A DNA stretch of 64,000 nt from Halohasta litorea (GTDB lineage Archaea; Halobacteriota; Halobacteria; Halobacteriales; Haloferacaceae). The position numbers were made by a program, and so were the translations under genes. This document shows, in pieces, positions 29,776 through 39,526 of the stretch. Below the pieces are notes generated by a model, which worked only from the letters and a program-made list of their open reading frames with translations, was not told the DNA's origin and made no database searches. Location of the stretch: positions 1 to 64,000 of the forward strand of contig NZ_JANHDJ010000001.1 of NCBI RefSeq assembly GCF_024494645.1, given 5' to 3'. The stretch's first letter is position 1; every line of letters starts with the position of its first letter.

Positions 29776-30369
29776 TTAGGCGTTGCCGAGATCGCGGAAC
29801 ATCACGCGGTAGTCGTCGGAGGACAGCGACCCCGCCAGGTCGAGCAGTTCGTCGTCGAGTTCGCTCATCCGGTCTAAGAGCGTGCTGTACTCCTCGCTGG
29901 CTTGGAGTTCGGCTTCCGATTTCTCGGATTCGAGTAGCGCACGCTTCGAGGCCAGCGATGCGGCTTCTCTGAGGAGGCCGCCGTACTCCGAGCGGACGAA
30001 CAGCGTTTCGACGGCCTCCAGGAGTTCCGACCGAGTCACCGGCTTGACGATATAGAGGTCGAACCCCATGTCGACGATGTCGAAGTCTGGCTCGACGCCG
30101 GTGACCATCGCCACCCGGCAGTCGAAGCCCCGCTCTTCGATGAGGTCCAGGACCTCCTCGCCGGGGGCGTCGGGGAGCCGCCGGTCGAGCAACACGGCGT
30201 CGATCTCGGCGGCGCCCGCATCGGTGGCTTCGCCCTGTCCGAGCAGCATGTCGATTCCTTCGTGGGCGGTTTCAGCGGTCAGGACCGTATACTCCGGCTC
30301 CAGAAACTGGACGTAGAGCTTCGTTACCGACGGTTCATCCTCGACGACGAGTATCGTCTTCGATGTCAT
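29776..30369 (-). CDS. HalX-domain response regulator
   Basis: A 197-aa protein. The start MTSKTILVVEDEPSV is chosen because the receiver fold begins there; an in-frame start 60 bp upstream adds a tail unlike receiver domains. The receiver domain has phosphoacceptor Asp62 in VLLDRRLPD and Lys in IVKPVTRSELL. The C-terminal HalX domain is a helical region, with SEYGGLLREAASLASKRALL and SEEYSTLLDRMSELDDELLD. HalX regulators are haloarchaeal and their output is unclear. It is transcribed away from the KaiC-like gene on the other side and forms the boundary of motility block B. Confidence 0.9.
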   Translation of the reverse strand: MTSKTILVVEDEPSVTKLYVQFLEPEYTVLTAETAHEGIDMLLGQGEATDAGAAEIDAVLLDRRLPDAPGEEVLDLIEERGFDCRVAMVTGVEPDFDIVDMGFDLYIVKPVTRSELLEAVETLFVRSEYGGLLREAASLASKRALLESEKSEAELQASEEYSTLLDRMSELDDELLDLAGSLSSDDYRVMFRDLGNA

Positions 30370-30585
30370 ACTCGGATCACCCAGCCGGGACACCGCTCGG
30401 AATCTGTCGGTTGGTCGGTTCGACGCCACACACCCATTCGTACTGTGACATCCACAACCCTGAAGGTATAAATGTATCTACTAACCGTTCATAACAAATC
30501 AACCGTTTTGATCTTATTTGGTAACAACAGGTTCGAGCCGGTGGGCTCTTTTAGGGGGCGGTCGTATTATCTCTCAACAACAGGT

Positions 30586-31332
30586 ATGACAGACGTAGTT
30601 CCAACTGGGGTCGACGGACTCGATGAGATCCTCAACGGCGGTATCGTGAACAACGCAACCGTCCTCGTCAGCGGCAACCCGGGGACCGGCAAGAGCATCC
30701 TCGGGATGCAGTATCTCTACACCGGCGTCACCGAGTTCGACGAGCCCGGGATCTACATCTCCTTCGAGGAGAACGCCGCCGACATCCGGGAGTCGGCCGA
30801 ATCCGTCGGCTTCGATCGCTTCGGCGAGCTGGTCGACGACGGCCAGATCAAGATCTACGACAAGCGGGATATGTTGAGCGACGGTGATTTCACCGCGACG
30901 ATGGACCGGCTGCTCGAAGACTTCTCGGCCGAGGCCTACGACCGCCTCGTGTTGGACTCGCTGACGATGTTCCAGCTGTTTTTCGACGACGAACGCGAGA
31001 AGCGGACCTATCTCCTCAAGTTCTCCGATATCCTCAAACAGTACGGCCTGACCTCCCTGCTCATCAACGAACAGGGTGCGGTGTTTCCCGACACCGAGAT
31101 CGGCCTCGAAAACTTCCTCACCGACGGCAACATCTACGTCATCCAGACGCCGACCGACTCCGGCGTCAACCGCTACGTCTGGGTCGCCAAAATGCGGAAA
31201 CAGAACATCGATACTGACATCTTTCCGATGGAGATCAGCGACGGCGGGATCACCGTCCACAACAAGGCCAGCGGCTTCTCGATGATGGGCGGCGACGGCG
31301 GCACCGGTGGGAGCGGCGGCCCCTCGTTCTAA
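30586..31332 (+). CDS. KaiC-like RecA-superfamily ATPase beside the archaellin cluster
   Basis: A 248-aa protein starting MTDVVPTGVDGLDEILNGGI. The KaiC-domain motifs are complete: Walker A SGNPGTGKSILGMQYLY, the paired catalytic Glu in GIYISFEENAADIRESAESV, and the Walker B region YDRLVLDSLTMFQLFF. It is a single-domain protein with a Gly-rich tail (MMGGDGGTGGSGG). Such KaiC-like ATPases are common in archaea as signalling or regulatory switches and are not proof of a circadian clock. It is transcribed toward the wHTH gene and archaellins, and resembles ArlH, itself a KaiC-like ATPase, so a regulatory or assembly role is possible. Confidence 0.85.
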   Translation: MTDVVPTGVDGLDEILNGGIVNNATVLVSGNPGTGKSILGMQYLYTGVTEFDEPGIYISFEENAADIRESAESVGFDRFGELVDDGQIKIYDKRDMLSDGDFTATMDRLLEDFSAEAYDRLVLDSLTMFQLFFDDEREKRTYLLKFSDILKQYGLTSLLINEQGAVFPDTEIGLENFLTDGNIYVIQTPTDSGVNRYVWVAKMRKQNIDTDIFPMEISDGGITVHNKASGFSMMGGDGGTGGSGGPSF

Positions 31333-33790: not shown

Positions 33791-34360
33791 ATGATACCCA
33801 AACATAACACGGAAGACCGCGGTCAGGTCGGAATCGGGACGCTCATCGTGTTCATCGCGATGGTGCTCGTGGCAGCGATTGCCGCGGGTGTGCTGATCAA
33901 CACGGCCGGGATGCTCCAAACACAGGCAGAGGCAACTGGCGAGGAATCCGCACAACAGGTAAGCGACCGGATTCAGATCCAGAGTGCAACCGGTGAGATC
34001 GGCGGTACTAACAACGAGACTCTCACCAATGTGACTCTCACCGTGACGAAAGCACCCGGTGCCGGTGATATCGAACTGCAGAACGTGACATACGAGATCG
34101 TCACCGATGATGAAGTCATCACCGACGTGATCGACGAATCCAACATCGGGAATATCACTGCAGCTACGGACGATTCGGTCATAACCGATCGTGCCGATCG
34201 ATACGAGATTACGCTCAACAAATCCCGTGATCTCGAAGACGCAGATATCTCCGGTGGTGGGACCCTCACAGTGACGCTCACAACCGCCTCCGGTGCCGCG
34301 ACGATCGAGGAACTACGCGTCCCGGACTCGCTGGTCGGACGGTCCGCCGTGAGACTCTGA
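33791..34360 (+). CDS. arlA4: Archaellin 4
   Basis: A 189-aa paralogue, signal [18 protein letters not shown], with Met in place of Leu in the core (TAGMLQTQ). Five sequons (NET, NVT, NVT, NIT, NKS). It is the most diverged of the four in its globular part ([33 protein letters not shown]). It has its own TATA box and is followed by a terminator-like hairpin, so it may be made under different conditions or used as a minor or hook-like subunit. Confidence 0.95.
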
Positions 34361-34415: not shown

Positions 34416-34543
34416 CATGACCTCCATTTTTCGAGCACTTATCGAAGAGCCGCGCTGACGACACGCTGCTGCCGATTCTCTGGCATCGAGAGCCCGACAG
34501 AGGGGCAACACTCTTTTAATCGGCTGACAAACTCTATCATATC

Positions 34544-35692
34544 ATGGGCTCGGACGATTCGGACGAGGAGAACCGCGACCGCGTGCTCGCGCCCGACGAT
34601 CTCGATATCACGAAACAGCCCGAGGTCGAGGAGATCGATGACGGACGGTACGTGGTCTCTCCTGACGGGCCAGCAAAGAAACCGGACCGGGAGCTGCTCG
34701 AAAACCCCGACTGGCTTACCGAGGACGACGAGGAGACCGCACCCCAATCGAGTAGCAGCCAGCCGTCACAGCCCGACCAGCCGTCACAATCTGGTCAAGA
34801 GCAGCGACGGAACCAATCCACAGCACCACAGCAATCTCCACAGGCCGATCGATCGACACCATCCCAACAGCCGCAGCCAGACAAGAACCCAACTCGACAG
34901 TCGAGTGGTCGTGGTGGACAATCGCCACCGAACAGTCAGTCGGGTGGTCCGAGCCAACAGTCGTCATCAAACGTGCAGTCGGGTGGCCGGAATCAGCAAT
35001 CGCCACCGAACACTCAATCAGGAGATCCGAGCCAGCAGTCACCGCCAAACGCGCAGTCAGGCGGTCGAAAGCAGCAATCGCCATCGAACCCCAACTCGGG
35101 CAGTCGGAACCAGCAGCCACCGAGCGATCAGTCGGGCGGCCGGAACCAGCAGTCGACGCCCGACCGGTCGACTAACCGGGGCCAGCAGGCTGGTGCTGCG
35201 GATCGATCCGGTGGTCGGAGTCAACAGCCACCTGGGGACGACCAGTCCGGCGGGAGAACGCCCCAGCCGTCGTCATCGGAGCTCGCGGCCCACGACCAGC
35301 CGCCGGTCGAGCCGCCTGCGGTCGAACTCACAAACGAGACCGTCAGCAAGTTCCTCGCCGAGGAACTCACCCAAGGCGATGGTGACTACGGGTTCGATGC
35401 CACGCTCAACGTCGAGGGACAGGTCAACCGCGGCCGGATGACCTCCGACGACATCGGCGAGACGCTCGAAACACTGCTGCGGTGGTACGCCCGACAGACG
35501 ACTGACGAAGTCGAGCCCGAATCGGTCCTCGGGATCATCCTCGCCGGGAGCGATCTGGCCGTCGAGTATCCGGTCCAGAGCGTCTACACGGTGGTCAAGC
35601 GCCACGGGCTCACACCGGATGATTCGATCGGCGACCTGCTGGCAGCCGTCCGCAAAGAGGGCTCGTTTACGGTTCCACCGTCCGAGGAGTAA
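34544..35692 (+). CDS. Gln/Ser-rich repeat protein with folded C-terminal domain
   Basis: A 382-aa protein with three parts. Residues 1-65 form an acidic N-terminal segment (DRVLAPDDLDITKQPEVEEI, DDGRYVVSPDGPAKKPDREL). About residues 66-245 are low-complexity Gln/Ser/Pro/Gly/Asn sequence, with irregular copies of about 13-14 residues such as QSGGRNQQSPPNTQSGDPSQ. The rest is a folded domain of about 130 residues (VELTNETVSKFLAEELTQGD, LETLLRWYARQTTDEVEPES, YTVVKRHGLTPDDSIGDLLA). There is no signal peptide or membrane segment. The N-terminal motif resembles the haloarchaeal DUF7500 group, from memory. Lying between archaellins and cheY, it is a candidate accessory factor of the archaellum or of polar assembly. 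Function unknown. Confidence 0.75.
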   Translation: MGSDDSDEENRDRVLAPDDLDITKQPEVEEIDDGRYVVSPDGPAKKPDRELLENPDWLTEDDEETAPQSSSSQPSQPDQPSQSGQEQRRNQSTAPQQSPQADRSTPSQQPQPDKNPTRQSSGRGGQSPPNSQSGGPSQQSSSNVQSGGRNQQSPPNTQSGDPSQQSPPNAQSGGRKQQSPSNPNSGSRNQQPPSDQSGGRNQQSTPDRSTNRGQQAGAADRSGGRSQQPPGDDQSGGRTPQPSSSELAAHDQPPVEPPAVELTNETVSKFLAEELTQGDGDYGFDATLNVEGQVNRGRMTSDDIGETLETLLRWYARQTTDEVEPESVLGIILAGSDLAVEYPVQSVYTVVKRHGLTPDDSIGDLLAAVRKEGSFTVPPSEE

Positions 35693-35795: not shown

Positions 35796-36158
35796 ATGGC
35801 AAAGCGTGTGCTGATCGCCGACGACTCGGAGTTCATGCGGAACTTGCTCCGTGAGATCCTGGAGGGCGATTTCGAGATCGTCGGAGAGGCCGAAAACGGC
35901 GTCGAGGCCGTCGACTTGTATAAGGAACACAACCCCGATATCACGATGATGGATATCGTTATGCCGATCCGCAGTGGGATCGAGGCGACCGACGAGATCA
36001 CCAGCAACGATTCGGATGCGAAGATCATCATGTGCACCAGTGTCGGCCAGGAAGAGAAAATGAAGGAAGCGATCAAGGCGGGTGCCTCGGGGTATATCAC
36101 CAAACCGTTCCAGAAACCTAACGTACTTGAAGCAATCAACGACGTCATCCCCGCCTAA
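35796..36158 (+). CDS. cheY: Chemotaxis response regulator CheY
   Basis: A 120-aa single receiver domain: acidic pair Asp9-Asp10 (LIADDSEF), phosphoacceptor Asp53 (MMDIVMP), Thr81 (MCTSVG), and Lys103 (ITKPFQ). All key residues are present. Phosphorylated by CheA, archaeal CheY acts through CheF on the archaellum motor. TATA-like TTTATGATA lies about 32 bp before the ATG. cheC begins 1 bp after its stop, so cheY-cheC are one operon. Confidence 0.97.
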   Translation: MAKRVLIADDSEFMRNLLREILEGDFEIVGEAENGVEAVDLYKEHNPDITMMDIVMPIRSGIEATDEITSNDSDAKIIMCTSVGQEEKMKEAIKAGASGYITKPFQKPNVLEAINDVIPA

Positions 36159-37924: not shown

Positions 37925-37957
37925 TTTGAAGTATACTGGTTGTTACGATTTCACGTA
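37925..37957 (+). promoter_or_regulatory. arl operon promoter (leaderless)
   Basis: GTATACTG at 37931-37938 is TATA-like and ends about 20 bp, starts about 27 bp, before the arlCE ATG (37958), giving a start of transcription at or beside the start codon. Just upstream, CTGAA-A-TTCAG at about 37903-37913 is a perfect 11-bp palindrome that could be an operator. Confidence 0.55.
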
Positions 37958-39526
37958 ATGGGTCTCGGTATATCGCTCCTCGTCACACACCCCGCGCTCG
38001 ATGGGATCTCGCTGTTCGGTACCGAGCTCTCGGTGCTGGGTCCCACCGCCGCCGGAACAGCAGGGTTAGTCGGCGCGAGTATCATCGACAGAATCCTCGA
38101 CTCCGACGGGGACGATGACTCCGACGACGGTGGCGGCGGTGGCGACGGACTGATGGACGACGGCGACGAGTTCGGCGGGATGGACGAGTTCGGCGGCGGA
38201 GGCGGCGGTGGCGGCGACGAGTTCGGCGGGATGGACGACGAGTTCGGCGGGATGGACGACGACTTCGGTGGCGGCGGTGGCGGCGGTGGCGGTGCCGACA
38301 TGGACGAGCTGGAACACCAGGTAGACGAGCTCGAAAACGAAGTCGCCAGCCTCTCCTCGACGGTCAACACCGTCAAAAGCGAAAACACCGAGATCAGCGA
38401 CCGGATCGAAGACGTCGAGGAAGACGTCCGCAACCTGCTTGACATCTACGAGATGGTCACCCGTGGAATCAACCCCTTCGTCGACGAACAGGACGCCGGC
38501 GACTTCGATGTCGGCGGTGCTGGCGGTGGCGGTGGCCTCGGCCTGTTCGACGACGGAGAGGACGACTCACAACAGGACGACGAGGACGTCGACGACTCGG
38601 TGATGAGCGAAGACGCCGATGGCTTCTTCGACGATGACTTCGAGGACGAAGACGACGATGACGACTTCGCGGACGACGACTTCGACGAGGCGGACGACTT
38701 CGAGGAACTGGACGAAGATGACGCCGACGATCTCGGCGGCGAAACCGAATCCGAAGAAATGGTGAGCGATCAAGATTCAACTGGCGGTAAGTCGTTTAGT
38801 GAACTGAAAGACGAGTACGACTCCGGAGACGCCTCCTGGGCCGAAGAAGACGAGGAGGCCGACGACGACCTCGGCGGGATGGACGACTCCTTCGAGGAAG
38901 ACGACGATCTCGGCGGGATGGACGATTCCCTCGAAGCCGACGACGATCTCGGTGGGATGGATGACTCCTTTGAGGCCGACGACGACTTCGCGGACGACGA
39001 CTTCGGCGAGATGGACGACGAGCCCGACGAGGCGCTCGGCAACGGCTCGGAGGCCACGATGGAAACCGAAGAGCCGACCACGACCGAGGAGTCGACCGCA
39101 GCTACCGACGCCACCGCCGACGCGGATGGCGACTTCGAGTATGTCACCTCCGACCAACTGTCCAGCAGCGGCGACAAGCCGTATCTCACGGCGATCCCCG
39201 GCGATTACGTCGGCGATCTGGTGGTCATGGAGTGGCTGGAGTTCCTCGTCGAGGAGTCGACAGTCACCGATGCGGCACGGGCGGTCAACTACTACGAGCG
39301 GATCGACTGGATCGACGCGGCCGCCGCCGACCACCTCCGGTCGTTCCTCTCCGGGTTCGGCACCATCGACCGCAACAAGGTCGACCAGCCCGGCACCGAC
39401 CAGTTGACACGTACCCACCACGTGCACAGCCTCAAATACATCATGAAGCTCAACAACGGCACGACTGCGACGTCGGTGATCCTGGATCGCTGGGATACCT
39501 TCGCAACAGGCGACGATGGGCTTTAG
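37958..39526 (+). CDS. arlCE: ArlCE fusion, archaellum motor-switch component
   Basis: A 522-aa protein starting MGLGISLLVTHPALDG. The hydrophobic N-terminus is followed by an extreme Gly/Asp low-complexity region with DEFGGMD repeats. A coiled coil with the ArlC signature comes next (DELEHQVDELENEVASLSST, LLDIYEMVTRGINPFVDEQD). A long acidic region includes DDLGGMDDSFE repeats. The ArlD/E domain ends it (KPYLTAIPGDYVGDLVVMEW, DAARAVNYYERIDWIDAAAA). ArlC/D/E form the cytosolic ring that receives switching signals through CheF. Fusion of C with D/E is known in haloarchaea. The hydrophobic N-terminus and the size of the acidic inserts are remarkable. Confidence 0.9.
   Translation: MGLGISLLVTHPALDGISLFGTELSVLGPTAAGTAGLVGASIIDRILDSDGDDDSDDGGGGGDGLMDDGDEFGGMDEFGGGGGGGGDEFGGMDDEFGGMDDDFGGGGGGGGGADMDELEHQVDELENEVASLSSTVNTVKSENTEISDRIEDVEEDVRNLLDIYEMVTRGINPFVDEQDAGDFDVGGAGGGGGLGLFDDGEDDSQQDDEDVDDSVMSEDADGFFDDDFEDEDDDDDFADDDFDEADDFEELDEDDADDLGGETESEEMVSDQDSTGGKSFSELKDEYDSGDASWAEEDEEADDDLGGMDDSFEEDDDLGGMDDSLEADDDLGGMDDSFEADDDFADDDFGEMDDEPDEALGNGSEATMETEEPTTTEESTAATDATADADGDFEYVTSDQLSSSGDKPYLTAIPGDYVGDLVVMEWLEFLVEESTVTDAARAVNYYERIDWIDAAAADHLRSFLSGFGTIDRNKVDQPGTDQLTRTHHVHSLKYIMKLNNGTTATSVILDRWDTFATGDDGL

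Follow-up and report, generated by a model that had tools for sequence, protein, structure and literature searches.

A DUF7500 protein is a probable motor-associated component of the haloarchaeal archaellum

Introduction

What does the gene lying between the fourth archaellin gene and cheY in the archaellum cluster of Halohasta litorea encode, and does its product serve the motor, taxis, or the archaellins themselves? The parts of the archaellum are generally taken to be known, yet nearly every archaellated haloarchaeon searched here has DUF7500 as an extra. Motor anchoring at the pole and the arrangement of ArlCDE are open questions (PMC8978795). Here we analyse this gene in a window of 64,000 nucleotides (the whole stretch of DNA studied, positions 1 to 64,000 of contig NZ_JANHDJ010000001.1), together with its homologues, and suggest that DUF7500 is probably a missed motor-associated protein of the haloarchaeal archaellum.

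Results

The ORF described in the first-pass annotation is real. It is intact, starts with an ATG at 34544, has a stop codon ending at 35692 and encodes 382 amino acids. The place assigned to it was right, as its 5′ neighbour is the fourth archaellin gene (33791-34360) and its 3′ neighbour is cheY (35796-36158). The dN/dS values against two congeners, about 0.05-0.15 for the C-terminal domain and 0.11-0.21 for the N-terminus, point to a real protein under purifying selection that is strong on both ends. The region around the upstream TTTTAA element and the start codon aligns with partial conservation in two congeners, L201 and L202, and the spacing of this element to the ATG fits a putative leaderless transcript. 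The features are:

30472-31332, cirA-like KaiC gene (domain type and H. volcanii gene order, PMC13286277)
31333-31746, minus strand, csmR-like wHTH gene (domain type and H. volcanii gene order, PMC13286277)
32052-34360, four archaellin genes
34514-34519, plus strand, TATA-like box TTTTAA, ~28 nt upstream of the ATG (sequence and congener alignment)
34544-35692, plus strand, gene for the DUF7500 protein, long form (ORF; PF24332, E 2.9e-57, 194 bits)
34580-34669, plus strand, N-terminal motif, residues 13-42 (VLAPDDLDITKQPEVEEIDDGRYVVSPDG), with invariant P, L, V and R (homologue alignment)
34760-35278, plus strand, disordered Gln/Ser/Pro/Gly linker, residues 73-245 (composition; length and composition vary in homologues)
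34919-35160, plus strand, tandem 13-residue repeat of QSGGxxQQ-type units inside the linker (TRF, repeat search, autocorrelation)
35324-35671, plus strand, C-terminal domain, residues 261-376, predicted H-bb-HHHH (alignment, AlphaFold2, profile span)

The cluster reads cirA-like KaiC, csmR-like wHTH, four archaellins, the DUF7500 gene, cheY, cheC and cheD, followed by arlCE/D, arlF, arlG, arlH, arlI and arlJ. The names cirA and csmR come from domain type and from the published H. volcanii gene order (PMC13286277) rather than from direct sequence comparison, and arlF, arlG, arlH and arlI were named by position and by homologous clusters. A HalX response regulator gene (29776-30369) lies beside the archaellum cluster, and a CheY-like ORF is found beyond cirA in many other sampled loci too.

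The protein belongs to Pfam family PF24332 (DUF7500), with 194.2 bits against a curated cut-off of 27. In the genome search the family profile matched in two stretches (profile positions 3-86 and 25-187), and both the motif profile and the C-domain profile match the protein, so that both conserved ends are present. This member shares the N-terminal motif and the C-domain with the family and differs in its unusually long Gln/Ser linker, with 218 amino acids between the two profile matches against a family median of 44. Pfam searches found neither the CheF domain (PF04283) nor the ArlC/ArlD/ArlE domains (PF04659, PF05377), and Pfam likewise gave no match to the CheC/CheX phosphatases or other taxis folds of solved structure; neither sequence nor fold comparison with the PDB gave a significant match. 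The layout had been called unlike that of known Arl and Che proteins, and the Pfam result confirms this. NCBIfam holds no model for the protein, and none of the papers searched names DUF7500.

The composition bears out the three-part layout proposed earlier, namely an acidic N-terminus, a Gln/Ser/Gly/Pro region of about 180 residues and a compact C-terminal domain. The acidic part is residues 1-72 (33% D+E, net charge -17). The linker (~173 residues) contains 22% Q, 21% S, 15% P and 12% G, compared with 3.5% Q, 6.4% S and 3.7% P in twelve other genes of the window. The compact part, of higher hydrophobicity, comprises residues 246-382. With a maximum 19-residue hydropathy of 1.09, the protein has no predicted transmembrane helix. 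The lag-13 amino-acid autocorrelation of the linker (0.375) exceeds the maximum at any lag in 2000 shuffles (0.267), indicating that the repeat is not due to chance; TRF placed 39/78-nt arrays at 34919-35122, and a repeat search found six units with 39-nt spacing at 34924-35160.

The N-terminal segment is acidic, as had been noted, and contains the most conserved short element of the protein, which the first-pass annotation had overlooked. In the homologue alignment this motif has the conserved elements LxPxxLD, VxE and GRYVV, and in a structure model of a short homologue it forms a beta hairpin (moderate confidence). A motif profile run against the genome of H. litorea found no second carrier at E<0.1; the DUF7500 gene itself scored E 2.4e-16. 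The structure prediction that had been proposed for the C-terminal part gave a helix, a beta hairpin and four helices (AlphaFold2, pLDDT 82.7, pTM 0.54). A PDB sequence search with the C-domain profile returned no significant match, and Foldseek searches of two AlphaFold2 models against the PDB gave zero matches at E<=0.001. Among 81 homologous ORFs, the linker between motif and C-domain ranges from 12 to 257 amino acids (median 44), and linkers of at least 30 amino acids vary from 4 to 42% D+E, 0 to 25% Q+N, 0 to 30% G and 4 to 39% P. In these alignments, conservation in DUF7500 is in the N-terminal motif and the C-domain, with the linker free to vary.

The family was then counted in 391 genomes of the class of the host (Halobacteria). 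DUF7500 was found in 301 of them, Arch_fla_DE (ArlD/E) in 305 and CheF in 234. Both DUF7500 and ArlD/E are present in 295 genomes, DUF7500 only in six, ArlD/E only in ten and neither in 80 (Fisher p 4e-64, a statistic that ignores ancestry). At least eight genera (g2, g3, g4, g5, g8, g10, g27 and g28) each include both-positive and both-negative species, which indicates that the presence or absence of DUF7500 and the archaellum changed together several times. Salt-loving archaea thus carry DUF7500, almost without exception, if and only if they bear an archaellum.

The exceptions were examined individually. In nine of the ten genomes with ArlD/E only, no ArlH-like match exceeds 67 bits; in the 12 archaellated controls, a subset of the 295 genomes that covers both types, the score is at least 264 bits in every case. 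By this profile check, the nine carry an orphan ArlD/E-domain protein and no complete archaellum; orphan Arch_fla_DE-domain proteins of such ArlH-less genomes are found in L207 and L209-L216. In the tenth, the draft genome G306, the contig with the archaellum cluster stops 3.8 kb beyond cheY, near the expected position of the DUF7500 gene, which lies about 3-6 kb upstream of cheY in the members of the genus that were sampled. Among the DUF7500-only genomes, archaellins, arlF/G and cheY persist in G060 and G226, where no ArlH exceeds background, G355 (L112) has an archaellin-like gene beside a short DUF7500 and no other arl genes, and G125 has a weak match, below the cut-off. The copy in G374 has no detectable N-terminal motif; this DUF7500-like remnant (L110, 9655-10690) directly adjoins a MinD/ParA-like gene. 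In G278, an arlJ fragment lies beside the retained DUF7500 gene (L218, 16732-17558), apparently the relic of a lost archaellum. In a sample of 148 genomes of the phylum, DUF7500 was found in 19, all in the class, and in none of the other 129 (five of them class members). Since other Euryarchaeota also have ArlCDE-bearing archaella (PMC8978795), DUF7500 cannot be a general motor part.

The position of the gene is also conserved. The refuting outcome named in the first-pass annotation, a gene not near archaellum loci elsewhere, fails on both counts, co-occurrence in the 391 genomes and location: more than 70 genomes were sampled, and in the great majority DUF7500 lies in or beside the archaellum/che cluster, the exceptions being solitary short copies and relics. 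Its neighbours across loci are archaellins, cheY, arlCE and arlJ. The long-form gene is found upstream of cheY or within the arl cluster, and short-form genes adjoin archaellins and arlCE. Five genera have an additional short copy that does not lie near archaellum genes (L184, L186, L192 and L196, also L189 and L194); those of L184, L192 and L196 lie beside an ileS-like gene.

Haloferax volcanii has DUF7500, as a control match confirmed. In genus g7 (L181) the order is cheD-cheC-cheY-DUF7500-csmR-archaellin-archaellin-cirA-arlCE, which matches the order published around H. volcanii csmR, HVO_1209 (PMC13286277); by synteny, HVO_1208 is probably the H. volcanii DUF7500 homologue. In the literature searched, HVO_1208 and HVO_1202 are mentioned only in the CsmR paper, the available part of which gives no phenotype for either (PMC13286277), and we found no deletion or motility phenotype for DUF7500.

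CheF never occurs without ArlD/E in the 391 genomes. DUF7500 is carried by 233 of the 234 CheF+ genomes and is retained in 62 of the 71 ArlD/E+ genomes without CheF, which argues that it tracks the motor and not taxis. Where CheF is missing, the match to the family profile usually stops near position 160 of 187 and leaves out the last helices (short form). Among the 150 top DUF7500 matches listed, 148 of which are in CheF+ genomes, all end at 185-187. In an ArlI tree of 53 loci, the short-form loci form one clade (12 tips, support 1.0) and the long-form loci are the other 41 tips, a complete separation. An association of the long form with CheF was considered and dropped, as the CheF-less genome G061 combines the long form with a type-1 motor and shows no che genes over the 19.5 kb inspected; the form of DUF7500 instead follows the motor lineage. 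G252 was listed as CheF+ on a weak match (E 6.9e-5) and has the short form and a type-2 ArlI. This second haloarchaeal archaellum type, with its own ArlI clade and a short DUF7500 beside archaellins or arlCE, is seen in L097-L101, L103-L105, L107-L109 and L111, with no CheF except one weak match.

Discussion

The combination of protein anatomy, distribution and gene order allows a role for DUF7500 to be proposed. The best explanation, which we hold with moderate confidence, is that it is an accessory protein of the archaellum, cytosolic and specific to haloarchaea, that acts as a two-ended tether on the motor/switch side. Two conserved ends joined by a free linker are the layout of a tether that binds at both ends: the conserved 30-residue N-terminal motif would dock on one partner, the variable disordered linker would give the tether its reach, and the small C-terminal domain would bind a second partner. 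The earlier suggestion of a motor or taxis protein as binding partner of the C-domain is plausible and agrees with the data. The cytosolic site, the tether mechanism and the partners are inferred. ArlCDE is a cytosolic hub that binds CheF and ArlH. This, together with the place of the long form between cheY and the arl operon, makes ArlCDE the leading candidate partner, as does the fact that no connection between the motor and the adjacent polar cap has been resolved (PMC8978795). The likeliest site would be the cytosolic motor/switch complex around ArlCDE, with ArlH/ArlI, where the tether perhaps links the ArlCDE ring to the anchoring platform at the pole; for the long form beside cheY, a link to taxis output would be an alternative. 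A stronger version, in which DUF7500 is an obligatory motor component tethering the ArlCDE ring to the polar platform, with versions for the two archaellum types, seems unlikely. Mirror-tree comparisons of DUF7500 with arl and che genes, in which pairs are non-independent, did not single out ArlCE, as ArlF, CheY, ArlG, ArlJ and ArlCE were indistinguishable.

Other roles have to be weighed against the tether. A cytosolic chaperone, or a translation or assembly factor, that serves the archaellins or their export would account for the adjacency of DUF7500 and archaellin genes that both archaellum types show, and the adjoining pair in L112 speaks for it as well. We nevertheless consider this unlikely, since several f4 genomes have DUF7500 between arlJ and arlCE/D, away from archaellins, a bipartite tether layout is unusual in chaperones, and archaellins show a low residual distance correlation with DUF7500 (0.13; weak evidence). 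An expression regulator working with CsmR and CirA is somewhat less likely again: DUF7500 is close to csmR and cirA in many loci, and motility in H. volcanii is under CsmR control (PMC13286277), but the protein has no match to a DNA-binding family in Pfam and no fold match, its residual distance correlations with CsmR and CirA are near zero (non-independent pairs), and it is found in type-2 clusters, where CsmR and CirA mostly were not found.

The gene lies directly upstream of cheY in many genomes, CheY has one of the highest residual distance correlations (0.65; non-independent pairs), and the long form is the form found in CheF+ genomes. A CheF-like adaptor from CheY/CheF to the switch could account for all three, yet we regard it as slightly less probable than a regulator, given the retention of DUF7500 in CheF-less genomes and the long form of G061 without che genes. 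That the Gln/Ser linker drives condensation, making DUF7500 a polar organiser, was the proposal of the first-pass annotation. The linker is low-complexity and repeat-bearing in this genus, and Gly/Gln-rich repeats recur in other DUF7500 loci, e.g., L191. However, in homologues located at the same place the linker is acidic or only 12-50 residues long, and across the family linkers are variously acidic or Pro-, Gly- or Gln-rich; as neither length nor composition is conserved, a conserved condensation is unlikely and this role highly improbable.

The preferred tether resembles known systems in part. Like DUF7500, CheF (PF04283, formerly DUF439) is an Archaea-specific protein of the che/arl cluster, often beside cheY, and was likewise first spotted as a DUF through gene position and co-occurrence (PMC2666748); it differs in sharing no sequence match and in being absent from many genomes that have DUF7500. 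In the available parts of the H. salinarum Che interaction papers (PMC2666748, PMC3579733), no protein recognisable as DUF7500 is named. A further comparison is the archaellum polar cap, or polar platform, the components of which are not identified (PMC8978795). The cap is described for Euryarchaeota generally, and the DUF7500 matches are confined to the haloarchaeal class. ArlCE/ArlD (PF05377, PF04659) are cytosolic, belong to the same cluster and have low-complexity linkers in haloarchaea, but share no domain with DUF7500 and are also found in archaea outside the class, where DUF7500 was not. The arlCE/D product of the window (37940-39526) has its own long low-complexity linker, which is acidic and Gly-rich.
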